Of a stretch of 64,000 nucleotides of DNA, positions 18,048 to 39,769 are shown in pieces (the stretch's first letter is position 1; the number at the start of each line of letters is the position of its first letter). The stretch comes from Muribaculaceae bacterium (lineage in GTDB: Bacteria > Bacteroidota > Bacteroidia > Bacteroidales > Muribaculaceae). Under the pieces are notes generated by a model. The model did not search any database. It was not told where the DNA came from and was given only the letters and a program-made list of their open reading frames with translations. The translations under genes and the position numbers were made by a program. The stretch is taken from contig JAIDTL010000129.1 of the NCBI GenBank assembly GCA_029060725.1, positions 1 through 64,000 on the forward strand, read 5' to 3'.

Positions 18048-19250
18048 ATGGCATCTGTAAAAATAAAATTCAAGGCATCTTCTTTGCCGGAGCATGAAGG
18101 AACCATTTACTATCAGATTCTTCATGAGAGAAAACAACGTCAACTTTACTCCGATTATCATGTGTTCCCTACAGAATGGGATGATAACCGCTCGATGGTT
18201 ATTACAACTCATTCCAGTGAGCGCAAGTCCCTTATCCTTTCAATCAGGGAACGGATCCGTTGGGACTTGGAACGTCTCAACAAGATTATCCGCAAACTTA
18301 ATAACGATGGAATAACTTACACTGCAGATGATATCATTGAAGAGTTTAACCGTCACGTCAATGAATATTCACTATTCAATTTCATGGAGAGTCTCATTAT
18401 TAAATTAAAGCAGAATGGCAAGATCAGAACAGCAGAAACATATATTTCAACGCTCAATAGTTTCAAGAAGTTCCGTAGGGGCGAGGACATTATGCTTGAC
18501 TGTCTCAATTCGGATCTGATGGAAGCATACGAAGCATGGCATCGGCAGAGAGGGTTGACACCAAATACAATATCCTTCTATACTCGTATTCTTCGGGCTG
18601 TATACAACCGGGCGGTTGAAGATGAAATCATTGAGAACCGCAATCCATTCCGGCACGTATATACTGGAGTTGACAAGACAGTAAAACGAGCCCTTCCTCT
18701 TTCAGCCATCAAGAAAATAAAGGCCCTTGACCTGTCACTGATACCGGAACTCGATTATGCGCGAGATATGTTTATGATGAGCTTTATGCTTCGGGGAATG
18801 AGCTTCATTGACATGGCATATCTCCGTAAGACGGACCTCGCAAATGGATATGTCACATACCGTCGACGCAAGACAGGCCAACAACTTATCATCGAATGGA
18901 CGAAGGAAATGCAGATGATCCTCGACAAGTATCCTGAGAATTCGAGCGATTACCTTCTTCCGATAATAAGGAATAAGGGAGTCAACGACCGGACTACTTA
19001 TCGCAATGTAGGATACAACATAAACCACAATTTAAAACGTATAGCAATGAAAGCCGGAATCAGCATTCCCTTGACGCTATATGTAGCCCGTCACAGCTGG
19101 GCATCAGTAGCGAAAGCAAAAGGCATCCCACTCTCTGTAATCAGCGAAGGAATGGGACACGACAGCGAAACCACTACCCAAATTTACCTCGCCAGCCTCG
19201 ACACCTCCGTCGTCGACCGAGCCAACTCCATAATCCTGAAAAGTCTTTAG
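18048..19250 (+). CDS. tyrosine recombinase / integrase (Bacteroidetes type, SAM-like N-domain)
   Basis: C-terminal catalytic HxxW..Y: ARHSWASVAKAKGIPLSVISEGMGHDSETTTQIYLASLD; ~400 aa. Confidence 0.93.
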   Translation: MASVKIKFKASSLPEHEGTIYYQILHERKQRQLYSDYHVFPTEWDDNRSMVITTHSSERKSLILSIRERIRWDLERLNKIIRKLNNDGITYTADDIIEEFNRHVNEYSLFNFMESLIIKLKQNGKIRTAETYISTLNSFKKFRRGEDIMLDCLNSDLMEAYEAWHRQRGLTPNTISFYTRILRAVYNRAVEDEIIENRNPFRHVYTGVDKTVKRALPLSAIKKIKALDLSLIPELDYARDMFMMSFMLRGMSFIDMAYLRKTDLANGYVTYRRRKTGQQLIIEWTKEMQMILDKYPENSSDYLLPIIRNKGVNDRTTYRNVGYNINHNLKRIAMKAGISIPLTLYVARHSWASVAKAKGIPLSVISEGMGHDSETTTQIYLASLDTSVVDRANSIILKSL

Positions 19251-19508: not shown

Positions 19509-19534
19509 ACAAAAAATTGTCATTATCTTACGAT

Positions 19535-20101
19535 ATGGCTGACTTTCAAGAATCACGAGGTGTTACGCCAGTCAATGGGACTGACGACCGCGAAGCGTAT
19601 CCGAAATTTTGGATTGCTGCATATACTAAGCCTCGTTCTGAGAAAAAAGCGGCCTCCGAATTGACAAAATTGGGTATTGAAACTTATGTGGCAACTCAAT
19701 ATCAAATTCGTCAGTGGAGTGATCGCAAAAAGAAAGTAGAAATTGTGGTTATTCCTTCAATCATATTTGCTCAGATATTCGAAGAGCAACTTACAAGTAT
19801 ATTATTTCACCGAAACATACTGAAGGTTATTACCCGTCCTGGAGAGAAGAAGGCAGCAAAAATACCTTCAGTTCAAATAGATAAACTCAAATTCATTCTT
19901 GGACAAACAGAAATCCCGGTATTATTTGATCCTAATCTTTTTTCCGTTCATAATACAGTTAGAGTAGTTCGAGGACCACTGAACGGATTGGAAGGTGAAG
20001 TAATACATTGTAATAATGACTCATCAGAACTAATTGTGCAAATAGATTTGCTTGGAGGTGCTCGTATGACTATTGATAAGAAAGAACTGGAACTAATATG
20101 A
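19535..20101 (+). CDS. UpxY-like transcription antiterminator (NusG paralog)
   Basis: WIAAYTKPRSEKKAASELTKLGIETYVATQYQIRQWSDRKKK N-domain and KOW VRVVRGPLNGLEGEV; ATG 19535. Confidence 0.9.
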   Translation: MADFQESRGVTPVNGTDDREAYPKFWIAAYTKPRSEKKAASELTKLGIETYVATQYQIRQWSDRKKKVEIVVIPSIIFAQIFEEQLTSILFHRNILKVITRPGEKKAAKIPSVQIDKLKFILGQTEIPVLFDPNLFSVHNTVRVVRGPLNGLEGEVIHCNNDSSELIVQIDLLGGARMTIDKKELELI

Positions 20102-23539: not shown

Positions 23540-24532
23540 ATGATAAAGCAATTTTTTAATAAAGTTATATCAGCGTTACTTCCTAATGTGTCTCAAGAAG
23601 AACAAACATCTTTTGATCAGAAAAAAGGAGTTGTGGCACCTCGCCAACGTGTACTCAATAAACTCAAGGAACAATTCTTGACTGAGATGGCCAATGAAAC
23701 AACCACAGAAAGTCTTTTATATCACACGTCATTTACCGTATATATTAGAGAGACAGAGTACGATAGACTTTCACCCAGTTTTGCGCAAACTGTTCGTGAT
23801 GCCATAAATATATTTATAAGGGAATTGCGTAAAGTTGTTAAGAATTATCCGGACTATCAAAATCACTCAAAATACTGGGAGATGCAACTTGTAGCAATTC
23901 CAGAAGACTCGGAGATAGATGGAATCAGTACGGAAATATTAGCTGAAAATCCCATCATCATACGGTCAAAATTGTTTGCAGATAATCAATATGATTTCCG
24001 TATACAAGATGATATTCATTGTGTAACAACAATTCATACGAAAGATTCATCAAAAGAAATGCCCAATGCTTTTAACCTTGCATCTTTGAAAGGATTAACA
24101 GAATTGGCAAAAGACAAATATCGAGTCGAGTTTAATCTGAAAGATGCAGTAAGTGAAACTCCTAAAAGCGAGGCTGACAAGTCAAGCAATAAAAAGGATG
24201 TTCATGCAACTCTTCATATCGTTGACGGAGATTTTATTCTCGGAGAACGAAAATATCGCGTTTACAACATGACCGGCGATAAGTTGCTTGTATCCGGTAA
24301 AAATGGTTCTGCATCAAACATTAACGATGAAATCCATATAAATGATGAATCTGTCTTAAATCCCACATTGGAAATAATCCGAGATAAGAAAACAGGACTA
24401 TTTTCCATGAAGATATGGGGCGATGTTAAGATGGGTGGCAAACGTATTGAACCCGGTACGGTAGTTACATTGCCTCACAATTCGAGCATTATGATAAATG
24501 ATGATTACCAGATAGATTTTACAACCAGATAA
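23540..24532 (+). CDS. FhaA-like protein: DUF3662-like N-domain plus FHA-like C-domain
   Basis: FTVYIRETEYDRLSPSFAQTVRDAINIFI resembles FhaA N-domain; C-terminus LLVSGKNG..NDEIHINDESVLNPTLEII FHA-like. Confidence 0.6.
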   Translation: MIKQFFNKVISALLPNVSQEEQTSFDQKKGVVAPRQRVLNKLKEQFLTEMANETTTESLLYHTSFTVYIRETEYDRLSPSFAQTVRDAINIFIRELRKVVKNYPDYQNHSKYWEMQLVAIPEDSEIDGISTEILAENPIIIRSKLFADNQYDFRIQDDIHCVTTIHTKDSSKEMPNAFNLASLKGLTELAKDKYRVEFNLKDAVSETPKSEADKSSNKKDVHATLHIVDGDFILGERKYRVYNMTGDKLLVSGKNGSASNINDEIHINDESVLNPTLEIIRDKKTGLFSMKIWGDVKMGGKRIEPGTVVTLPHNSSIMINDDYQIDFTTR

Positions 24533-24534
24533 TT

Positions 24535-24615
24535 ATGAATTTTCTGTTTATCATAGGACTATGTTGCTTGGTGGGCTACTTGTTTTATTCTCATTTTAAG
24601 TCATTACCCAAATGA
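24535..24615 (+). CDS. 26-aa single-TM micropeptide
   Basis: MNFLFIIGLCCLVGYLFYSHFKSLPK; stop overlaps ATG of PP2C gene (ATGA). Confidence 0.5.
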   Translation: MNFLFIIGLCCLVGYLFYSHFKSLPK

Positions 24616-25712
24616 CAGAAAGCAAATACTCCGCTAAGTATTTTGGTGCAACCAATCAGGGTATGGTACGTATCAATAATGAGGATACCTATATTTGTCA
24701 AAAGATATGGGATGAGAGTCATATACTCTGTGCTGCAATTGACGGATTAGGAGGATATGAAGGAGGAGAGATCGCAGCTGAACTGGCACGCACTACTATA
24801 ATAAAACATCTAGAAGATTTTGCATCTAAGAAGACCGGAGAGTTATTGAAAGCTTCACTCATAGCTGCGAATAACGAAATTATACGCCAACATGAGGCTC
24901 GGCCGAGAGTATCTCAGATGGGATGCGTTGCTTCGGTTGGAATTATTGACCTGTCGCAAGGGGTTATAACTATTGCGCATGTTGGAGATTCTCGTATATA
25001 CCAATTTGTAAAAGGAGAGTTGAAAAAACTGACCCATGACCATTCATTAGTTGGTTATAGAGAAGAAACCGGTGAATTATCGGAAGAGGATGCAATGAAT
25101 CATCCCAAAAGAAATGTTATAGATAAATTCCTTGGGGAACAACATTTGAACTTTGATTCTGAAAGCTATGTGGAAGTTTCTGTCTGGCCAATAACAGGAG
25201 ATACACAATACCTATTTTGCTCTGACGGTTTAACAGATTTAGTAACAAGTACGCAGATTTCCAACATCCTCTCTTCTGAAGAATCTATCAAAGAAAAAGT
25301 GGGAAACCTCATATCCTCTGCGAACGAAGCTGGAGGCAAGGATAACATTACTGTGGTATTATCAGATATAAAAGTGAATGTGGACAATACAACAATAATG
25401 AGTCCTGAAGATGAATGTCATATTATAGAACCCACAATCAATAAAGCCTCGTTTCATCATAAGAGTTTTATATGTGGTGGATTTTTAGGTATGATACTTG
25501 GTGTGAGTGGAATGTACACCTTTCAACGAGTTGTTCATGAAGCAACCGAATTGGAAACTCATACACAAACATACACTGGCAAACAATGGTTCGATTCCCA
25601 AGAAAATATAGAGCTTAAACGTGAAATTGCGATTCTGAAGGACTCTATTGCAAAATTCTCAGTAACATATAAGAACAATCAGACTGATTCAAAAGAAGAT
25701 AAAAACTATTGA
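24612..25712 (+). CDS. PP2C family Ser/Thr phosphatase with C-terminal TM helix
   Basis: DGLGGYEGGEIAAELA, AHVGDSRIYQF, FCSDGLTDLV, GGKDNITVVL. Confidence 0.93.
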   Translation: MTESKYSAKYFGATNQGMVRINNEDTYICQKIWDESHILCAAIDGLGGYEGGEIAAELARTTIIKHLEDFASKKTGELLKASLIAANNEIIRQHEARPRVSQMGCVASVGIIDLSQGVITIAHVGDSRIYQFVKGELKKLTHDHSLVGYREETGELSEEDAMNHPKRNVIDKFLGEQHLNFDSESYVEVSVWPITGDTQYLFCSDGLTDLVTSTQISNILSSEESIKEKVGNLISSANEAGGKDNITVVLSDIKVNVDNTTIMSPEDECHIIEPTINKASFHHKSFICGGFLGMILGVSGMYTFQRVVHEATELETHTQTYTGKQWFDSQENIELKREIAILKDSIAKFSVTYKNNQTDSKEDKNY

Positions 25713-28700: not shown

Positions 28701-29915
28701 GATGCAAGATTGCAGATGGCGCTTCAAAATGAATTAGCAGACAAAATCACCAACGGAGATCTTAAAAATAATAAATATGTAAGGGCATCGGTTGTCGTAC
28801 TTGATGCAAAGAATGGCGATCTGCTCTGCTCCGCTAATTACCCACTTCCAAGTCAGGATTCAATCTTTATGTTGAATGACAAAAGGATCTTCGGAGATGT
28901 GCCGTTTGAAAGGATTCCGGGACATCTTCCGATAACGGAGCGTGATTTAGGAATGACTTTCCAGTCATATCCCGGCTCCACTGCCAAGGTCATGTCTGCA
29001 ATGGCGGGATTCAAGAATATGGGTGAGGCAGCGGGAAAGGTAAAATATGAAATTTTAGCTGAGGAGCTTGTACACAAGGAAAATGGTAGAGAACCTTCCG
29101 GAACCGTTGATATGAGAAAAGCTATTGTGGAATCATCAAACTGCTATTTTATTGATTTAGTACACGACAAGAAACTTTATCCGGAGTTGGATAGCATATA
29201 TTCAACAGTGGGAATCAGACTTGATCCAACCGAGGCACTCCAACTTAATGACAGTACTATTACGGCGTATTTCTTTTATCCTGAAAATGAATTTACTGAT
29301 AAAAAATCCGGAAAATATCACCCGCTGTTACGCCAAATTGCAAATGGAGGCTACAACATGTTTAATCAGTACTTTCAAAAAGAGCGTCCTGTGCGCCCGA
29401 GGTCAATGAATTTCTCATTAACCGCTTCCGCTTGGGGGCAAGGTTCCATTAAAGCCACCCCTTTAAATATGGCCAGGGTGGTATCGATTGTAGCTAATGA
29501 GGGTAAATTCACTCCCACGAGATATATTTTGGAAGAAGGGGGTAAAACTTTAAAGCCTCTCAAATCTAAAGAGATTATCTCACCTTCATCTGCGGAGTTG
29601 TTAAAATCATATATGCAAGACCAATCCAAGAAGGGATTCCCTTCTTATAATGGAAAAATGGGTGGAAAAACCGGTACGCCCACTCGTGATGTTAGAAATA
29701 AGCATATTCTTAAATCCTTTGGCTTGGGGAAACCGGCTCAAATCAATGATGCCTGGTACATATTTTTTATAGACTCCCCGAAACAAGATGGTCCTTTGGC
29801 TGTGGCATTGCGTATCGAACGTTCCCGCAGAAACTCCGGCATCGCGATGTCATTAGTCCGCTCTGCAGTAATACCGACACTGGAAAGATTAGGTTATATT
29901 GATTCTTCAAAATAA
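25767..29915 (+). CDS. SEDS (RodA/FtsW)-class B PBP transpeptidase fusion (1382 aa)
   Basis: SEDS motifs FGFQPSEISRVLIVIFIAWFFA, SDMGPALVVLVSFI, PFLSYGRVSFI; PBP motifs STAK (PGSTAKVMSA), SSN, KTG (GGKTGTP). Confidence 0.92.
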   Translation: MTPKKAIAAYILAVCVFILGVFSLYHNLEPQLDGVAKAIDQGSTLVLKKGLDQKKLVDILYKGGYIDNQSDADFVASRIKKIVDEKGSIPNLGSLLKQEFKITADTAAIMGGEDFQSRIRSDHYKLGVTDDDNNIIKYREYADAQLPDSASALISVNVKNAKGVNDTIAGIPVRIRQYTVLKDVKGNDSIATDTLGISLTDASGMVSFKVRKRGFYSVLPIKKGFQYGREKGTTKGELTGNMDISFAQRPHVISLLSPQAFSNLKYDRTLVVRTPAEFKDSLISMVAIFILGWGVFLLFIFQLDKKLCTRSDYLLIIALMIISGIGLLTSYGIWNPLTDTLYGSVMTSGLLIGLVAMAAITLVNYAKLDARLSSSKWWILRNYGWTVLAGAFGLLCMLYLFGTGPEGSDAKVNLFGFQPSEISRVLIVIFIAWFFARKATLIQDFSQRLTWLTLKRQLSIISLIILGMMVLMMVYLILSDMGPALVVLVSFILIYSMARRDFAQLLLGLITFIVLMLGTRWLISSPDYRLPSLLLAAAIWFIVWIGYWYWKKKQIYESAIFLNLVIVVFSLAGLILESIGQHGLAARLTNRTDMSWEGVWDNEVLGGDQVVQGIWSLATGGFSGLGLGNGSPAIVPAGHTDMIFTTIGEMLGLVGLALVVLCFFVIIHRTLLIGRRAGYAFPFYLATGLGIVTGIQFLVIVAGSIGLLPLTGVTLPFLSYGRVSFIISLASFGFVVSISRLRANEVQREYTNSFNGSIAACSGLFLLGGVILLCTAAKYQIFSKGDTLIRPAYVTNVEGARVVEYNPRIGLVLRKLKAGNIYDCNGLLLATSNIKELEAAKDCLENAGVTEEMYDKEHSKRKRRYYPFGDHTLFMLGDYNTLKVFGYSLGNPTGYLAESRHLGDLRGIEIRTFPIEKPAKSYKQNRFAAEEKGHKFNLLEHDYSNLLKAGFLNYGIERNPVIKAHNARKEKRDMKLTLDARLQMALQNELADKITNGDLKNNKYVRASVVVLDAKNGDLLCSANYPLPSQDSIFMLNDKRIFGDVPFERIPGHLPITERDLGMTFQSYPGSTAKVMSAMAGFKNMGEAAGKVKYEILAEELVHKENGREPSGTVDMRKAIVESSNCYFIDLVHDKKLYPELDSIYSTVGIRLDPTEALQLNDSTITAYFFYPENEFTDKKSGKYHPLLRQIANGGYNMFNQYFQKERPVRPRSMNFSLTASAWGQGSIKATPLNMARVVSIVANEGKFTPTRYILEEGGKTLKPLKSKEIISPSSAELLKSYMQDQSKKGFPSYNGKMGGKTGTPTRDVRNKHILKSFGLGKPAQINDAWYIFFIDSPKQDGPLAVALRIERSRRNSGIAMSLVRSAVIPTLERLGYIDSSK

Positions 29916-29919
29916 GGAT

Positions 29920-31851
29920 ATGAAGCTGTTCTACGAAAAATATATAAAACTCGCTCACATAGGGAAAGGTGCAAATGCACATGTCTATAAAGTTAGACAT
30001 GCCGAATTAGGCTATGTCCGTGCAATCAAGATTCTTAATGAAGATATTGAAAGTAAAGGAGAACGGGCATATCAGTCCTTTCTGAAGGAGTGCAAGACAT
30101 TACTTGCAATTGGGAATGGTGCTCATCCGAATATTATCAGAATATATGGACCTGATTTGATTGACAACCACGCTATTGTGGAAATGGACTATGTGCAAGG
30201 AACAACCTTAGATTCATATATTAAGAACAAAGGCTTTTTAGATTATGAAGAAGTCAAAATCTTTATACATGATATAGTCGGCGCTCTGGCATATACGCAT
30301 CACGATATTTACAAATTCTTGATGAATCCGGAAGAAGATGATTTACAGCCGGATCCCAATGATGGACACAAGTATGTTATAACATCTGAAAAAGAAGCCG
30401 AGCTTGTAAAAAAATATGGCATTGCGCACAACGACCTTCATTCCAACAATGTAATGCGTCGTGATTATGATGGTAGTTTCGTCCTTTTGGATTTCGGTCT
30501 GGCTGTACAAGACGGAGAGTGTATCAAGAGCAGTCGAAAGTCGGATGGTCACCCTGAATACATGGCTCCGGAAAAGTTTGACTCAGGCGATATTACTCCT
30601 CGAAGCGATGTGTATTCGTTCGGTGTTCTTATTTATGAGGCATTAACCGGGCGTCCACCTTTTATCTTAGATTATGATACCGATGGAAAGGTATCTTACC
30701 CTGCTTTGTCCAAAATATGTAATGAACACCATAACCAGACTCCTCCTCCGATAATTTCATTAAGGAAATCTGCTTTTGAGAAACAGATACCCGGTGCAGT
30801 CTATGAACGTGATTATCCTGAGTGGCTAGATAATATAGTGATGAAGTGCCTTGCTAAAAATCCGGAAGACCGATATTCTGATGCAAAGGAACTTTTTGAT
30901 GACCTTAATTGGCATATTTCTCACGATACACTTAGGCATGAACCTCCCCATCGCTCACCCGATATAGTAATTGACGAAGAAACCGTATCCGAGGTATATC
31001 CTCCTGACACCAATAATGATGGCGAAGAAACTTCAAGAAAATCGAAACAAAAGACTAATAAAACGAAACTGATATTTTTAGCTGGATGCTGCGTAGTTTT
31101 AATGGTTGGGATACTTTACTGGACACTTTCATTAGGTAAGAAATCGCATAGTTATATCCCAGTACAAGAGATTATTATTCCCCAAATGGAGTATTCTCTG
31201 AATGTAGGTGATTCTATCTATATAAAACCGAAGATTATCCCGACTGACGCAACTGATTCCATCGTTAATTGGGTCTCAACAAATCCAAACGTTGTCAAAG
31301 TATTAGACAATGATTGTTTTAAGGCTATAAAAAGTGGTTCTGCTAATCTAAAAGCAACAAGTAAGGACGGAAAAGTTTCAACACTGGTTTCAGTACAAGT
31401 TATTGAAAAAAATCCAAATCACTTGGACAAATCAAATCAATCTGGAAAAGTTGAAATAGAGTCATCAAAAGACAATCAACCGAAAGAATCTGCTTATAAT
31501 AAAAATGAGCTTAACCCTAATGAAAAAATAAAAAGACCTACAGACCAAACTGTTCGACATGATAATATTCCAGTTCCGGGAACTATTCAAGAAGCATTAA
31601 ATATCTTAATCGATGGAAATATCTCACGAGAAACTCGATTGAATAGTATACCAGAGATAATGAATAAGTTTTTCGACCATGGTGCTATGATACGTACTGT
31701 AAGTGATTCTGATTTAATCTTAGATAATGAAAATGCAGAGGACTTTTTACGTAGAATAGTACTTTCTAGAAGAATATCTCGAATCATTATTTCCGGGACA
31801 GAAAAACAGAATAAAATTACAGAATTAAGAATTAAAGAAATAGACAAATAA
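29920..31851 (+). CDS. Ser/Thr protein kinase with TM and extracytoplasmic Big_2-like domain
   Basis: GKGANAHVYKV, RAIKIL, HNDLHSNNV, LLDFGLAV, PEYMAPEK; TM LIFLAGCCVVLMVGILYWTL; Big_2 PTDATDSIVNWVSTNPNVVKVLDNDCFKAIKSGSANLKA; ATG 29920. Confidence 0.9.
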   Translation: MKLFYEKYIKLAHIGKGANAHVYKVRHAELGYVRAIKILNEDIESKGERAYQSFLKECKTLLAIGNGAHPNIIRIYGPDLIDNHAIVEMDYVQGTTLDSYIKNKGFLDYEEVKIFIHDIVGALAYTHHDIYKFLMNPEEDDLQPDPNDGHKYVITSEKEAELVKKYGIAHNDLHSNNVMRRDYDGSFVLLDFGLAVQDGECIKSSRKSDGHPEYMAPEKFDSGDITPRSDVYSFGVLIYEALTGRPPFILDYDTDGKVSYPALSKICNEHHNQTPPPIISLRKSAFEKQIPGAVYERDYPEWLDNIVMKCLAKNPEDRYSDAKELFDDLNWHISHDTLRHEPPHRSPDIVIDEETVSEVYPPDTNNDGEETSRKSKQKTNKTKLIFLAGCCVVLMVGILYWTLSLGKKSHSYIPVQEIIIPQMEYSLNVGDSIYIKPKIIPTDATDSIVNWVSTNPNVVKVLDNDCFKAIKSGSANLKATSKDGKVSTLVSVQVIEKNPNHLDKSNQSGKVEIESSKDNQPKESAYNKNELNPNEKIKRPTDQTVRHDNIPVPGTIQEALNILIDGNISRETRLNSIPEIMNKFFDHGAMIRTVSDSDLILDNENAEDFLRRIVLSRRISRIIISGTEKQNKITELRIKEIDK

Positions 31852-31863
31852 ACAATTAAACTT

Positions 31864-32520
31864 ATGATGAGAGTAATAGCATTACTTATTCTTTCTATCT
31901 GTGTGAGCATTAATGTCAGTGCTCTCTCAAGCTACATCCTCACAGAGGAAGATAAGGAACAAGTAAAAGAACGTATAATAGATAAACTCGAAGATTTTCA
32001 ATTTTGGCTTGGAGAAATTGCAAACAAGAAGAACTCTCAGAAAGTTCGAACAGACGCACTCAAGTCTAATATCGTGCTTTTTATCGGAAAATGTGACCCT
32101 TATACTGTTACTAATCATAAAACTGGAGAGCTTGAGGTAAAAGAAGCTGTTAAAATGCAGACATCCTCAGTGCGAAATGGAAAGGAAGTTAAAAATCCAC
32201 CTCAACGGATGAAACAGTACCTCTACAATATTTTAAATAATGAGACCTACAGTAATATTAAAATAGAACAAGCTGATGCGGTACGAGTCGATAATATAAG
32301 ACAAGTAGGAGACGGCGAATATGAGGCTGTGGCTTACTTTTGTCAGTATTTTACCGGCTATCGAGGTGAAGAAAATTATGTAGCATATAGCGATTACACT
32401 GAAAAGGCTGTAAGAATTTCAATTGGTCTTGAGGAGGTTAGACATGCGGGCAAAACTGAAAAAATAATAAAAATTAAATTAGGCGACATGAAAGTTGCCC
32501 TTACTGAACGGTTAAGGTAA
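31864..32520 (+). CDS. exported hypothetical protein
   Basis: Signal peptide MMRVIALLILSICVSINVSA; no family recognised. Confidence 0.7.
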   Translation: MMRVIALLILSICVSINVSALSSYILTEEDKEQVKERIIDKLEDFQFWLGEIANKKNSQKVRTDALKSNIVLFIGKCDPYTVTNHKTGELEVKEAVKMQTSSVRNGKEVKNPPQRMKQYLYNILNNETYSNIKIEQADAVRVDNIRQVGDGEYEAVAYFCQYFTGYRGEENYVAYSDYTEKAVRISIGLEEVRHAGKTEKIIKIKLGDMKVALTERLR

Positions 32521-32524
32521 CTAT

Positions 32525-33337
32525 ATGAAAACCACTTATTTATTTTATATGCGGTTAATAGGTATCTTGATAATTATCTTAATACCATTTAATAATGCAA
32601 AAGCTCAACTTCTATTGGGTTCTCATGAATTCGAGGATCAACTGTATGATTCACATGTGAAAAGTTTAGATGAATTTATTCAACGCTTTAACGGACGAGA
32701 GATTAACCAGCTAGCTTCTCAGAATCAAATAAATAAAGTAAGAGCAACTAGATTTTCATTATTTGATTATGAATTATTAAAGGATATTGATAGAAACGAT
32801 TCTATCCCAAGCATATATGAGAAGTTTATTTTCGATATTGAAGCTGATTCAATATCTATAGCAATTGAGGACTCCCTTAATTGGGTAGAAGCTAAATGTG
32901 ATTTTAGTTGGAAAAACGCTCCAAAATCATTATCACTTAAATTGCAACTTGAGGAAGATGGCAATCATTGTTGGCGGTGGTGCATTATCGGAGTAAATGG
33001 ACTTAAAGACTGTAGTCTTCTTGATGAAGAAGGCACATTACAAATTAGTCCGGTAGATCATGAATTAAACTTTATAGGGTTAGAAAGTCTTTTCTTGCAC
33101 GACTCAATGAAATTTGCTAAAACAAGGAAAGACGGAATACCAATTGATGAACTATCATATTTCTATGGTCTGGTTTATTCAGGTTTGCTAAAATATAATA
33201 GATGTGATAGTGTTGAATTTCATTGTAACCAAATTCCAGGATATTCTTTCATCGTAAAGGAAATAAATCGATTGAAATCATCAAATTCAGGCTGGTTGAT
33301 AGTATCTCTCAAAAAAACAATAACTGCAAACACTTGA
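32525..33337 (+). CDS. exported hypothetical protein
   Basis: Signal-like MRLIGILIIILIPFNNAKA. Confidence 0.65.
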   Translation: MKTTYLFYMRLIGILIIILIPFNNAKAQLLLGSHEFEDQLYDSHVKSLDEFIQRFNGREINQLASQNQINKVRATRFSLFDYELLKDIDRNDSIPSIYEKFIFDIEADSISIAIEDSLNWVEAKCDFSWKNAPKSLSLKLQLEEDGNHCWRWCIIGVNGLKDCSLLDEEGTLQISPVDHELNFIGLESLFLHDSMKFAKTRKDGIPIDELSYFYGLVYSGLLKYNRCDSVEFHCNQIPGYSFIVKEINRLKSSNSGWLIVSLKKTITANT

Positions 33338-33342
33338 CCATT

Positions 33343-34131
33343 ATGAAAAAAATAATCAGTATTGTCACGATTCTTTTAGTATTAATGTCTTCGTTGACCA
33401 CAAAGTCAGAGACATATCTAAAGGGTGAATTTGCATCCAGTAATATATGGATCGATCTATTAGGAATTTTGGCTACTTATGCCATAAATAAACCCAAGAA
33501 AAACATTGTAGTTGATAGCTACCTGACATTTTCGGGTATAGGGATTGATGTTGACCCGTATATAAACAAAACTATTATCTCTACTTCTTCTGACAATATT
33601 ATTAAACCTTTGTATGGTTTTAAATTGCAGGAGCTTTTCAATGGATTCGGAACAGGAATAAAGTATGGATACCGCAACGATTATGAATACTTTCTTAAAT
33701 CTTGGGCAGTATATGGATCACTGCACGAAACGTATAATTATTATCTCATTGATGTAAATATTATAGGAGAAGGAAATAAAACATACGGCAATTCTGTTTT
33801 AAGACTATCTCCGGGAATTGGAACAAATATTACTTTGGGTAAATATACTTCTCCGGTGTATGTATTATTGGATTTTAATCTAAAATATGATATCCCTATA
33901 ATATATAAAGGGTATTTTGGAAGTGGCCCCGGATGTCTGAAGTCTGGGTATTCTCCTCGCATAACTGCGATAGTTGGGGGACCTCATTTGCGTAAACTTG
34001 GGTTGAATGTAGGTGTCTTTTACGAATGGATGAATTATAATTTATTCAAACCGAGCGAATATTTCATTGAACCTTACAAAAGTAAAGGCATGACGTTTGG
34101 TATGAACGTTACAATGTACCCATGGAACTGA
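33343..34131 (+). CDS. exported hypothetical, possible outer-membrane beta-barrel
   Basis: MKKIISIVTILLVLMSSLTTKSE signal; alternating aromatic/Gly-rich strands; ATG 33343 chosen over TTG 33334. Confidence 0.6.
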   Translation: MKKIISIVTILLVLMSSLTTKSETYLKGEFASSNIWIDLLGILATYAINKPKKNIVVDSYLTFSGIGIDVDPYINKTIISTSSDNIIKPLYGFKLQELFNGFGTGIKYGYRNDYEYFLKSWAVYGSLHETYNYYLIDVNIIGEGNKTYGNSVLRLSPGIGTNITLGKYTSPVYVLLDFNLKYDIPIIYKGYFGSGPGCLKSGYSPRITAIVGGPHLRKLGLNVGVFYEWMNYNLFKPSEYFIEPYKSKGMTFGMNVTMYPWN

Positions 34132-35063
34132 GAATCTATACGTTTTTTATAATATTTACCCTGAATTGCATCCCTGCAGCAGCGTCTACTAAAAATTCAG
34201 CTACCCCGGCTCCAGTTAGGACATTCTTAAATAATTTGGAAAGACTACAGCTGCTGTCAGATGATCAATCAGATGAAGCATCAAGGTTAAATTACGAGAA
34301 CCGAGATTGCTTTGCAGGTGGAACTGCTGAGGGAAATGGGGTGAAAATTCATAATAGTGAACTTTACTTTTTAAATATTAGCATAAGTTATGGTGCCAGT
34401 CAATATTGTAACAATCTTTTTACTTTATTGTACAGGAATCGGGACTTAAAACTTTCACATGATATTGTAAGTACCGAACCTATTGTTTTCGCTGATGCCA
34501 ATGGTAAAGATGAGATACGTTTTTATGATACTAAAGTAAAGAAAACGTGTATTTACAATGGTGAAGAAAAAGTGTTTTGGCAAAAATTTGGAGTTGATGC
34601 CGAGGATGAATTAATTGATACATTGGAGGGATATGATAGCAAGCCATCCAATTGGGAAGGTAACATTTCAGATAAATCTAATAAAAAAACTAATATAGAG
34701 CGTGGAGGATCCCAGCAATCAGAACAAGGAAATAAACTATATACTCCACCCATTCAAGAGACGCTGCCACAAACAGAAAAGGAATTGCTCCGATTGGCGG
34801 CCCGGTATTATACATCGAAAGACTATTCTTCGGCAACTAAAACACTTCATCAACTAACAGCCAAATATCCTAATAATGCTGAAGCCTGGTATAGGTTGGC
34901 GACCATAATCAGGTTTAAAAATAAATGGAGTAAAAATGTATATGCTAAACCTAAAGAGACTGCTATCGAATATATGAGAAAAGCTGTAAACTTGGCAACA
35001 GGTAGCCTAAAAACGAAAGCTGAAAGAGCACTGTTTGATTGGGAACATCCATACAGCATGTAA
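34122..35063 (+). CDS. exported TPR-containing hypothetical protein
   Basis: C-terminal TPR-like LRLAARYYTSKDYSSATKTLHQLTAKYPNNAEAWYRLA; overlaps upstream stop. Confidence 0.65.
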   Translation: MELRIYTFFIIFTLNCIPAAASTKNSATPAPVRTFLNNLERLQLLSDDQSDEASRLNYENRDCFAGGTAEGNGVKIHNSELYFLNISISYGASQYCNNLFTLLYRNRDLKLSHDIVSTEPIVFADANGKDEIRFYDTKVKKTCIYNGEEKVFWQKFGVDAEDELIDTLEGYDSKPSNWEGNISDKSNKKTNIERGGSQQSEQGNKLYTPPIQETLPQTEKELLRLAARYYTSKDYSSATKTLHQLTAKYPNNAEAWYRLATIIRFKNKWSKNVYAKPKETAIEYMRKAVNLATGSLKTKAERALFDWEHPYSM

Positions 35064-35082
35064 TATCAATTATATTTAAACA

Positions 35083-36480
35083 ATGAGCTTCTTAAGAAAA
35101 ATAGCGGAATTAATAAACGGGACTTCATCTAATACCACAAATATTGATGGAGAAGCGGATAGTGGAAAGGTTACTCCAAATACACATGAAGAAGAGGCGT
35201 CCTTTCTCGAAAATGACGACGCGTCTCAAAAGTCTAAATCAATCGAGGTGCAAAAGGATTTAGGGACTTCATTTGATAAACGTATATTAAATTCTGAGGC
35301 TCTCTCAGAGCAACGTTACGGGTGGCATCTCTACTTATTAGAGATTCTTTCGTCCCTGTCGGAAAGTAAACCTGAAAATCTCAAATATCTTTCTATCTAT
35401 ATTCTGAAAGACAACAGGGACTATAGGTGGAATGATGATGCTTTCAGGGGTGAGCTTCGTCAAGCCCTTGATAAAAGAAACCTTGCTCACATTGGTTCTT
35501 CGTCAATCGTTATAGAGGCAGTTTCAGAAAAAACGTTTAAACAACTTACCGAGAAAACAGTTACAGACACTCAGTATAAGCGGCAGATTGATAATCTAAT
35601 CCTTTTTGGAAGCAAAAAAGAAACTACTGAACAAAAGTTTGCAACAGCTATTGATAAGCGTGCTTTTGTAATTAACGAACTGCTGAAAAAGTTCCGCAGT
35701 TCTACCGGTACTGATACTAATCTTATGGAGAATCTTGTCATAATAGTCATTCGTAATGAAGAAGATGATGACATGGCTAAATATGATTGGATTGGCAAGC
35801 GTTTTGAAGATGATCTGAAGCGAGAACTCACAAATGCCTTTCTCGAACAGATTGGAAGTAAATCGTTGCAGATAATTCTTAAACCGAAATCAGAAACAGA
35901 AGATTGTATCAGTCTTATTGACAACCAAGTCTATTATAAATGGGGCAAAGCTGATACATCTGAGGACGATAAGCCGAAAGAAATTCCCTACGAGCGAGTT
36001 ATTGCATCTATTTCAATTATTGAAGGCACCGGGTCAATGATGCAACCTTCTTATGTACTTGATTCTGACCGTAAGAAAATATTCCATATAGGACGTGGTG
36101 TAACATCACGTAAAGGTGGCAAATATCGAGTAAACGATATTGTTATTAAAGACAAAGAAGCAGATCATGATCTTCTTGAATACAATGCGCATGTCAGCAG
36201 CACACATGCAGATATTGTATTCAAAAACAATAAGTTCTATATTAAGGCGGCCATCGGTGGTTGTCGTGCGATTGGAGGAAGTCCCACTAAGTTAGTTCGT
36301 GACGAAAAAGCTATAGAATTAAGAGACACAAATCTTCTCTATCCTTTGGAAGACGGAGATATTATTGAGTTAGGGAAAAATGTCCTGTTAGTCTTTTCTC
36401 TTACAGATGATGGCTCTTTGCCAATGAATTTTGAAAAAGAGAGGCCTAATAATGCAATGTCGATAGACGATTCTTTCTAA
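35083..36480 (+). CDS. FHA domain protein with two related N-terminal modules
   Basis: FHA: HIGRGVTSR..YRVNDIVIKD..NAHVSSTHADIVFKNNKFYIKA..LEDGDIIELG. Confidence 0.8.
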   Translation: MSFLRKIAELINGTSSNTTNIDGEADSGKVTPNTHEEEASFLENDDASQKSKSIEVQKDLGTSFDKRILNSEALSEQRYGWHLYLLEILSSLSESKPENLKYLSIYILKDNRDYRWNDDAFRGELRQALDKRNLAHIGSSSIVIEAVSEKTFKQLTEKTVTDTQYKRQIDNLILFGSKKETTEQKFATAIDKRAFVINELLKKFRSSTGTDTNLMENLVIIVIRNEEDDDMAKYDWIGKRFEDDLKRELTNAFLEQIGSKSLQIILKPKSETEDCISLIDNQVYYKWGKADTSEDDKPKEIPYERVIASISIIEGTGSMMQPSYVLDSDRKKIFHIGRGVTSRKGGKYRVNDIVIKDKEADHDLLEYNAHVSSTHADIVFKNNKFYIKAAIGGCRAIGGSPTKLVRDEKAIELRDTNLLYPLEDGDIIELGKNVLLVFSLTDDGSLPMNFEKERPNNAMSIDDSF

Positions 36481-36491
36481 TCCTTTATTTT

Positions 36492-37928
36492 ATGGAAGAT
36501 AAGATAAAACAAGTATTTCCGGATGCTTCGGTAATGAAGTCTGGTATAACTGACACCCTGTTTGCAGGTAGAAATCTCCCCGTTTTTGTCCGTGATTACA
36601 TTCTCAGACGTTTTTCTGACGAACATGGCAACGTTGATAAAGAAGCTTTATCAAACTACTTCGATGAGAAAATGGGAGTAGAGGGTCAGATTCTTAAGAA
36701 TCGGTTATTCAGCGGAAGAGAACGAGTGAACGTAACTTCTCGTGTTGTTTTTAGGACTGAATTGGACAAAGGCACAGTGTGGTTTGACCTGCCTGATGCC
36801 GGGATTACTAAAGACGCACGTGTTTCGCCCCAACTTATTCAAGAACAGCCGGAATGGTTTTGTGATGGCGAACATTGGGGTAATATGACGATGAGATATG
36901 TAGAACCTCAAGGTAAAGAGAAAGGTCATATACTTATGATTTCCTTCAAACCCTTTGAACCATATTCAGTTAATTTTGATTACTATCTTAATGCACGTTG
37001 CAAATTCGATACAATAGAATGGATTGACACACTTGTAAAGATAATGGGGTATAATCCAGATTCGTTTGAGAATACTGATGTGAAATTAGAACTTATCAGT
37101 CGCTTACTTCCGTTTGTTGAACCACGATTGAATATCATTGAACTTGGTCCCAAAGGTACTGGTAAGTCATATCTCTATAACAATTTCAGCAAACGGGGAT
37201 GGATTATCAGTGGTGGAAAGATTACTCGTGCTAAACTATTCTTCAATAAACAGAACCGTCAGTTCGGACTTCTAAAGCATTATGACGCCCTCGCTATTGA
37301 TGAGATAGCATCTTTCTCTTTTGAAAATCCGGCTGAAATGCAGTCCATATTTAAGTCTTATTTAGAAGATGGAAGAGCAACAGTAGATAACACTGTATTT
37401 CAATCAGATTGTGGTTTAACGCTAATGGGTAATATTCCGGTTGATGGAGAAACTCGACAACCTTTAGATTCTGCCTATTACAAAGTCCTTCCCGCAATGC
37501 TTCAGGAATCTGCCACTCTTGATCGTTTTCATGGATTTATAGAAGGTTGGAAACTTCCTCGTCTTGAATCAGGGACAATTCTTAATGGCTGGACACTGGA
37601 TGCGGAGTATTTCTCCAATATCCTTCATCTACTACGCACCCGAACAGAATATACTTCAATTTTTGATGAATTGATTGAGGAATCTTCAAGTGATATAAGA
37701 GACCGGAAAGCAGTTAAGCGTCTTTCAACAGCATACCACAAACTACTCTTCCCTCAAATACGGAATCTGAATGATTTGAGTGATGAAACGCTTGAACGCT
37801 TCAAAGCTACATATAAGAAATATTGCTTAGATCCAGCTATATCACGCCGTGGTATTATTCGTAAGCAATGCTATGCAATTGATAAAGAGTTCTCTGAATC
37901 AATGTCCGAATTCCGAATAAAATGTTGA
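36492..37928 (+). CDS. BrxL-like (Lon-related) AAA+ ATPase, short form
   Basis: ELGPKGTGKSYLYNNFSKRGWIISGGKITRAKLFFN; YDALAIDEIASFSF; LMGNIPVDGETRQPL; LPAMLQESATLDRFHGFIEGWKLPRL. Confidence 0.8.
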   Translation: MEDKIKQVFPDASVMKSGITDTLFAGRNLPVFVRDYILRRFSDEHGNVDKEALSNYFDEKMGVEGQILKNRLFSGRERVNVTSRVVFRTELDKGTVWFDLPDAGITKDARVSPQLIQEQPEWFCDGEHWGNMTMRYVEPQGKEKGHILMISFKPFEPYSVNFDYYLNARCKFDTIEWIDTLVKIMGYNPDSFENTDVKLELISRLLPFVEPRLNIIELGPKGTGKSYLYNNFSKRGWIISGGKITRAKLFFNKQNRQFGLLKHYDALAIDEIASFSFENPAEMQSIFKSYLEDGRATVDNTVFQSDCGLTLMGNIPVDGETRQPLDSAYYKVLPAMLQESATLDRFHGFIEGWKLPRLESGTILNGWTLDAEYFSNILHLLRTRTEYTSIFDELIEESSSDIRDRKAVKRLSTAYHKLLFPQIRNLNDLSDETLERFKATYKKYCLDPAISRRGIIRKQCYAIDKEFSESMSEFRIKC

Positions 37929-38098: not shown

Positions 38099-39232
38099 AT
38101 GAATTATAAATTATTAAGCATCTATTGCCTTATTGGTTTAATGTTCATAAGCTGTTCAAGGAATCACAGTTATGAAGATCAAATTTCCAGAATCCTTGTC
38201 TACGATGACGAGGTTGGAGAATATACAGATGGACAGATAGAGAAGGTTTTTAAACTGATTGAAGACAATCCAGAGACATTGGATTATGATTTTTCCGAAG
38301 AATTACCGATGATTGTTGTAACTTCTGATGATGGGAAAGTGAGAGCCTATGTGATTGAAAAATATGATTTCGGTGGCAATCCATCGGCTGGATTTGAAAC
38401 AAGTACATTAATTCAGTACAAAGTTGGCAACGAGATTTATACAACTCATTTAGATGAAGAATTTCCAATAGTTAAATCGATTGCGCATCTTTCTGACAAT
38501 TTTTATCTCATTATAGATTGGTGGGGATTCATTGCTCAGGGCGAACACAATCATAACAGGGCAAGAGTATTTAAGATAGACGAATGGGATTTAAAAATGT
38601 GCTCTAATATATTCAGAGATAATGAAAATAACAAAAATCAAATAGAAATATATTGGAATGATGATGATTTCTTGGATGATTCTATGCCTAATTATTATGA
38701 ACTTCAGGAAAAGCTTATAGATGAAGCAAATGCAGATTTTGATTTAGGTATAGTTTATAATAAGAATTTGAAAGATTTATATATTCCAAATATTATCCAT
38801 ACTCCTCACCAATATGAAATTATGGATGGAACGTTCAGCCGATTCTATTGGACTGGCAAATATTTTATAGATGCAACTCTTATGGATCCTTTGGAAAGGA
38901 TGAATAATGATTATTTTATTCGCATAGAACAGGAATCGGATGGTTCATGTACCTATAGATGTTGGAATGGAGGAGTAATAATTGGGAAACCGGCTTTAAC
39001 TATTAGAAACGGTAATAGACAAGTTTGGGGAGAATATGGTATCTATGATTACAATAAATGGATTTCATTAGATGAATCATACATATTGGGTGAGACATAT
39101 TCTTTCGAAAATAAAGGTTATAGATATATTTATAGAATTGGACGGGATAGAGGATATAAAATAGAGGACTTAGAAGTATATGATCCTAAGGGAGAATTGG
39201 TATACTCAGGTCGTTTTGAACCGGTTCATTGA
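38099..39232 (+). CDS. lipoprotein, unknown function
   Basis: Lipobox IGLMFISC near N-terminus. Confidence 0.65.
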   Translation: MNYKLLSIYCLIGLMFISCSRNHSYEDQISRILVYDDEVGEYTDGQIEKVFKLIEDNPETLDYDFSEELPMIVVTSDDGKVRAYVIEKYDFGGNPSAGFETSTLIQYKVGNEIYTTHLDEEFPIVKSIAHLSDNFYLIIDWWGFIAQGEHNHNRARVFKIDEWDLKMCSNIFRDNENNKNQIEIYWNDDDFLDDSMPNYYELQEKLIDEANADFDLGIVYNKNLKDLYIPNIIHTPHQYEIMDGTFSRFYWTGKYFIDATLMDPLERMNNDYFIRIEQESDGSCTYRCWNGGVIIGKPALTIRNGNRQVWGEYGIYDYNKWISLDESYILGETYSFENKGYRYIYRIGRDRGYKIEDLEVYDPKGELVYSGRFEPVH

Positions 39233-39244
39233 GCTATTCTGTGT

Positions 39245-39769
39245 ATGCCCATTATGAGGACTTTAAACTCCAATAAAAGCAAACAGTTAGCATATCTTCT
39301 TCGACACGATCGTAATTATGATTTTGAGATTGGAGGCTGGAGAGAGTTAACTGATTTATGTCAACGTTATTCCTTTACGACGGAGGATATTGTTGATATT
39401 GTGTCAAATGATAGCAAAGGTAGGTTTGAGTTTAATCCTGATAAGACCAAGGTTCGAGCATTGTATGGACACTCGGTTAAAATAGATTTATTGTTACGCC
39501 AACAAGAACCACCTCTACGATTATATCATGGAACTGCGTTAAAATACGTTGAGTCAATCCGAAATAATGGACTTATATCCAAATCCCGACAATATGTTCA
39601 TCTAACAGAAGACAAGTACTTGGCAATAATGACCGGCTCCCGACATGGACAGGCTGTTTTACTTGAGATTAATTCTCTGGCAATGTTCAACGATGGATAT
39701 AACTTTTACCACACTAATAATGGAACGTGGTTAACAGCAGAAGTCCCTATTCAATATATATTATTTTAA
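39245..39769 (+). CDS. KptA/Tpt1-like RNA 2'-phosphotransferase
   Basis: KSKQLAYLLRHD, WRELTDL, VRALYGHSV, LYHGTALKYVESIRNNGL, RQYVHLTED, GTWLTAEVPIQYI. Confidence 0.82.
   Translation: MPIMRTLNSNKSKQLAYLLRHDRNYDFEIGGWRELTDLCQRYSFTTEDIVDIVSNDSKGRFEFNPDKTKVRALYGHSVKIDLLLRQQEPPLRLYHGTALKYVESIRNNGLISKSRQYVHLTEDKYLAIMTGSRHGQAVLLEINSLAMFNDGYNFYHTNNGTWLTAEVPIQYILF

Follow-up and report, generated by a model that had tools for sequence, protein, structure and literature searches.

An FHA protein (FHA2) encoded immediately upstream of a short BrxL, at a locus outside any BREX system, was examined computationally in a 64,000-nucleotide stretch of a Muribaculaceae genome (GenBank assembly GCA_029060725.1, contig JAIDTL010000129.1, positions 1 to 64,000; hereafter the window). 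We give slightly better than even odds (about 0.55) to the reading that the pair is a BrxL module outside BREX, in which BrxL is coupled to its partner by the partner's acidic-phenylalanine C-terminal tail. BrxL has so far been known from BREX anti-virus systems only, where a recent survey places it in Types 1 and 4 alone (PMC12839542); here it stands beside a phosphopeptide reader outside BREX, and the tail suggests how BrxL plugs into different control systems. No paper of the literature searched reports a BrxL set in a kinase/FHA operon, and the search, from which most subscription papers fell outside, found nothing joining BrxL with FHA domains, describing a PglZ-BrxL docking motif or peptide, or describing the Bacteroidetes operon. 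The main value of the analysis is a testable general claim about BREX, namely that the tail of PglZ tracks BrxL among the PglZs examined.

A short BrxL with no BREX neighbors

A sequence-only reading of the window had taken the 478-aa product for BrxL-like in its N-terminal and AAA+ regions, and profile searches bear this out. Pfam places BrxL_N (PF20442) and BrxL_ATPase (PF13337) above gathering, the N-terminal motif LFAGRNLPVFVRDYILRRF occupies residues 23-41, both Walker A (GPKGTGKS at 219) and Walker B (Asp at 270) are intact, and the best HMM matches are to BrxL rather than to unrelated AAA+ families. The same reading held that the C-terminal Lon-like domain was missing. That domain is indeed absent, since the match to the solved long BrxL 8EMC (679 aa) stops at residue 430 and the long model TIGR02653 (675 positions) is matched only to about the same residue, but nothing has been lost: BrxL of Type-4 BREX comprises N-terminal DNA-binding domains and an AAA+ region, naturally without a C-terminal extension (PMC12839542), and the shortness of the window protein is therefore ordinary. 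TIGR02688, which had been expected to map the missing domains, is itself a short-BrxL model of 449 positions and is matched over positions 1-448 (387.3-387.6 bits; cut-off 329.3); the PADLOC BrxL model (482 positions) covers 5-478 in its match, at 556 bits. A truncated or degenerate BrxL is ruled out by these full matches, by the intact Walker motifs, and by the short form of every member of the clade described below. Compared with BrxL of Type-4 BREX, the window protein has the same short architecture, 43-50% identity, and likewise an acidic-phenylalanine tail on the protein encoded directly upstream; with BrxL of Type-1 BREX (8EMC), whose directly upstream PglZ is also tailed, it shares the N-domain and AAA+ core at about 30% identity but not the Lon-like domain, which in long BrxL mediates ring dimerization (PMC10164562).

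As the first reading had proposed, the locus is not a BREX locus: on the window contig, tblastn found no match to BREX-1 PglZ, BREX-4 PglZ, or BREX-4 BrxC, nor, among DNA modification components, to BrxP or a partial PglX query. That BREX genes lie just outside the window is rejected for the contig and, on the evidence of PglZ, for the assembly (86.6% complete), whose sole PglZ-domain match is a PorX-like protein of 512 aa that joins a response regulator to PglZ.

Most loci in a neighborhood survey of short BrxL (one genome per species scanned, best 80 loci kept) are Type-4 BREX, with the gene order BrxP (PAPS-reductase-like), BrxC, PglZ, BrxL, an assignment confirmed by NF033445 for two PglZ. 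Related to the Type-4 proteins is a group of 14 BrxL loci, joined with 100/100 support and with no BREX gene seen nearby; this number takes in the window as well as loci retrieved afterwards from whole genomes, and L133 and some others lie on short contigs, so that their neighborhoods are incomplete. Unlike Type-4 BREX, the window has a BrxL of a separate clade, no BrxP, BrxC, or PglZ, and an FHA protein as partner (elsewhere in the clade, a small adaptor). The hosts are Bacteroidales or members of the window's own family, several with isolate names that point to the rumen. A strong short-BrxL match occurs in 6 of 393 genomes of the order and 14 of 397 of the family, few of them scoring at clade level. 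Three contig-end loci considered as further non-BREX cases (L028, L034, and L045) were rejected; they group with BREX-4.

Table 1. Features of the window and of the loci compared with it
Feature	Position or loci	Strand	Annotation
Tyrosine recombinase	18048-19250		upstream of operon
NusG-family gene	19517-20101		upstream of operon
FHA1, first FHA-like protein of operon	23540-24532	+	degenerate FHA-like C-terminus; conserved first/neighboring gene in relatives
PP2C-type Ser/Thr phosphatase	24612-25712	+	one transmembrane segment; Pfam PP2C_2; NF033484 194 bits
FtsW/RodA (SEDS)-PBP transpeptidase fusion, 1382 aa	25767-29915	+	Pfam FTSW_RODA_SPOVE and Transpeptidase
Membrane Ser/Thr kinase with Big_2 domain	29899-31851	+	Pfam Pkinase 130 bits, Big_2
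Four genes between kinase and FHA2	31864-35063	+	three with N-terminal hydrophobic signal-like segment, then TPR protein (TPR_14)
FHA2, 465 aa	35083-36480	+	predicted (AlphaFold2, Foldseek): disordered N-terminus, alpha/beta region, FHA domain (307-440), disordered C-terminal extension
FHA2 C-terminal tail, last 8 residues AMSIDDSF	36454-36477	+	proposed BrxL-docking motif
Short BrxL, 478 aa	36492-37928	+	TIGR02688, PADLOC BrxL, Pfam PF20442 and PF13337
g38099 and KptA/Tpt1-like RNA 2'-phosphotransferase	38099-39769	+	downstream of BrxL; module membership uncertain
KptA/Tpt1-like genes	window 39245-39769; L023:12577-13161; L138:1172-1708		PF01885 116 bits (window)
HExxH membrane proteins	L017:12820-13527; L021:8595-9302; L025:9283-9783; L026:9292-9984; L133:3241-3948; L134:10356-11162; L135:10013-10741; L138:6294-6932		
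Giant membrane proteins	L020:2925-8195; L021:1991-7567; L026:731-6562; L135:3305-9376		
FHA2 flanked by two Ser/Thr kinase genes	L147:8602-12397; L148:8149-11849		
PglZ C-termini	L160-L184, L195-L202, L014-L096		
BREX-4 BrxLs with own tail	L046, L050, L052-L054, L062, L063, L066, L073, L075, L077, L080, L088, L093, L094		

The FHA protein and its kinase operon

The FHA2 and BrxL ORFs lie on one strand, 11 nt apart, just as first described. Neither Pfam nor NCBIfam has a match for FHA2, and a PDB sequence search with it gave nothing useful. AlphaFold2, run with 15 homologues, confidently predicts residues 307-440 as a domain and residues 444-465, tail included, as disordered; the best Foldseek matches of the model are the solved FHA domains of ArnA, Dun1, GarA, and OdhI (E about 1e-5, probability 1.00), and phosphothreonine-contact motifs are present (GR at 337, SSTH at 372). 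Because the fold search matched solved FHA domains where sequence searches failed, the FHA identity that had been read from the letters is settled: by its predicted fold FHA2 is an FHA protein, with phosphothreonine binding predicted. FHA1 has no Pfam match, and its FHA label comes from inspection of its sequence.

Every gene from FHA1 through BrxL lies on one strand, and the kinase, PP2C, and FHA genes are conserved together as an operon, in keeping with the kinase-to-FHA connection suggested earlier. The kinase retains AIK, HND, and DFG motifs and has a transmembrane segment near residues 387-405. A profile search with FHA2 recovered the set of FHA1, PP2C, SEDS-PBP fusion, FHA2, and kinase, in varying order, from other genomes of the window's family; most of these relatives show no BrxL over the sequence read (L139-L142, L144-L148), so the kinase operon probably came first and BrxL joined it. 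Outside the window lineage, genes of the operon recur alongside BrxL in three loci (L024, L025, and L138), and L138 also has the same four genes between kinase and FHA2, in the same order.

The actinobacterial pknB operon, fhaA-fhaB-pstP-rodA-pbpA-pknA-pknB, likewise brings together FHA proteins, a PP2C phosphatase, a SEDS protein, a class B PBP, and a membrane Ser/Thr kinase. In the window, unlike that operon, SEDS and PBP form one chain, the kinase carries Big_2 rather than PASTA, and BrxL is added. The window kinase also recalls PglW of Type-2 BREX, both being protein kinases found in a BREX-related context, but the similarity is only that of generic kinase domains (NF033442 37.5 bits vs a cut-off of 990), and Type-2 BREX has no BrxL (PMC12839542).

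Distribution of the acidic-phenylalanine tail

In every clade locus with enough upstream sequence, the protein encoded just before BrxL has an acidic-phenylalanine tail, with an extra gene between the two in L025 and L026. Most clade members (11 loci) carry it on a small adaptor unrelated to FHA2, a protein of ~200 aa with no Pfam match, encoded one or two genes before BrxL, disordered and poorly conserved in its middle but conserved over its final 8 residues (GFEENDIF, GFDENDIF, GAEVDESF, GFDMDDSF, and GFDIDTSF). A fold search with the adaptor found no match (best E 0.46) that would explain its N-terminal domain, and its profile found nothing in the window's own genome or in 396 genomes of the phylum, sets that held no positive control. 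In the window lineage the tail is on FHA2 itself: FHA2 of the window and of L017 ends ...NNAMSIDDSF directly before BrxL (at a distance of 14 nt in L017), with no small adaptor beside BrxL there, and of the 197 ORFs in the window that encode 60 aa or more, FHA2 alone has such a tail. Homologues of FHA2 that have no BrxL in their operon, or that accompany a separate tailed protein (L024, L025, and L138), stop shortly beyond the FHA domain. The clearest contrast is L138, where the same operon and intervening genes include an untailed FHA2 and the tail is on a small protein directly before BrxL. The tail on FHA2 is a single evolutionary gain.

The specific link between FHA protein and BrxL that adjacency had suggested is strengthened by this distribution and by the resemblance of the FHA2 tail to those of PglZ in BREX. 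Type-4 PglZ encoded directly before BrxL ends in GFEEEELF, GIIEEDLF, GAQEDDLFGF, and similar sequences, and Type-1 PglZ in SFTSDFDF or TFTNDFDDF (Bacteroidota), AFQDDFF (E. coli), or AFTDDFF (Acinetobacter). A simple criterion, F or W among the last 5 residues together with two or more D/E among the last 10, describes 99 of the 110 PglZ encoded beside BrxL in BREX types 1 and 4, all 11 small adaptors, and both FHA2 proteins adjacent to BrxL, as against 7% of background ORFs and none of 13 FHA2 proteins not directly before BrxL, although this criterion was chosen after the data had been seen and the counts are inflated by related sequences. It describes none of the 6 PglZ without BrxL, a small control group of four close haloarchaeal BREX-5 proteins (...ITQE or ...ITQG), one cyanobacterial PglZ, and PorX. 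A PSSM built from the small-protein tails alone distinguishes PglZ tails from those of 1,107 other ORFs with an AUC of 0.97 (up to 3 trailing residues), and in the reverse direction 10 of 11 small-protein tails score well above background. The FHA2 tail of the window is outscored by 2 of the 1,107 background ORFs, at least one of which is a duplicate small adaptor (L033).

Docking model, alternatives, and neighboring genes

We infer that the tail binds BrxL, docking onto it whichever partner is tailed: PglZ in BREX, where docking would bring BrxL to PglZ, the small adaptor in the non-BREX clade, and FHA2 in the window lineage. A candidate site for the tail is the conserved N-terminal helical region of BrxL that holds LFAGRNLPVFVRDYILRRF. 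In the window, the membrane kinase may sense the envelope, the FHA domain of FHA2 would bind the phosphorylated kinase or a substrate of it, and the tail would hold or release BrxL under this phospho-control. BrxL, with its N-terminal domain and MCM-like AAA+ ring, would then assemble on DNA with ATP and might either block invading DNA in defense or act on host DNA under envelope stress. Long BrxL does assemble on dsDNA with ATP (PMC10164562), and in pull-downs BrxL associates with other proteins of type-1 BREX (PMC11974810). More tentatively, the tail may be a general connector plugging BrxL rings into sensors, used by PglZ throughout BrxL-containing BREX and moved to other proteins, an FHA reader among them, which would give Bacteroidales a kinase-controlled BrxL defense or DNA surveillance without BREX DNA modification.

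The neighbors of BrxL in the clade are envelope-related (FtsW-PBP fusions, a PBP1-like protein, and HExxH and giant membrane proteins), and fit an envelope-sensing defense or a circuit coordinating cell wall and DNA alike. It is conceivable, if rather unlikely, that the module serves housekeeping rather than defense, linking the chromosome to cell-wall synthesis or to envelope stress, a reading compatible with docking that also draws on the likeness of the FHA/PP2C/SEDS-PBP/kinase set to the pknB operon. Its sparse distribution even within the family and the close relationship of the clade to Type-4 BREX BrxL speak against this, and a defense system could equally well sense the envelope.

Acidic-phenylalanine tips also resemble those of SSB, whose DDDIPF recruits partners, and LF endings resemble clamp motifs of the QL[SD]LF type. 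The tail might accordingly bind the sliding clamp or another replication factor, so that BrxL and the tailed protein would meet only through shared DNA machinery. Some BREX-4 BrxLs themselves end in a similar tail (GFTENKLF, GMEENELF), which favors such a target and is left unexplained by docking; the one SSB found in the genome of the window (108 aa) lacks an acidic tip and so neither helps nor hurts the comparison. We nevertheless consider another target distinctly unlikely, in that the tail tracks BrxL, is lacking in BREX-5 PglZ, in PorX, and in those FHA2 homologues that do not immediately precede BrxL, and has SF-ending variants that do not look clamp-like. Very unlikely, in our judgment, is that BrxL is unrelated cargo lying by chance after the kinase operon and the FHA2 tail a coincidence: the operon usually has no BrxL, and a tyrosine recombinase gene lies ~17 kb upstream, but FHA2 and BrxL are closely spaced in both the window and L017, operon genes recur with BrxL in three other loci, and FHA2 is the only tailed ORF of the window.

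Several minor observations concern the neighboring genes. The tyrosine recombinase gene is followed by a NusG-family gene, both upstream of the operon, and may mark an island edge. Beside BrxL in 8 of the 14 clade loci is an HExxH membrane protein, not found on the window contig; by Pfam, the L134 protein is M50B-like in its L033 copy. The giant membrane proteins near non-BREX BrxL (1757-2024 aa) form one family, and one has a weak transpeptidase match. KptA/Tpt1-like genes occur near BrxL in three clade loci, and the g38099 family in four. A single chain of ~1400 aa uniting FtsW/RodA and PBP transpeptidase is conserved in the kinase/PP2C/FHA operon of the window and L139-L149, and in two genomes of one genus FHA2 is flanked by two Ser/Thr kinase genes.
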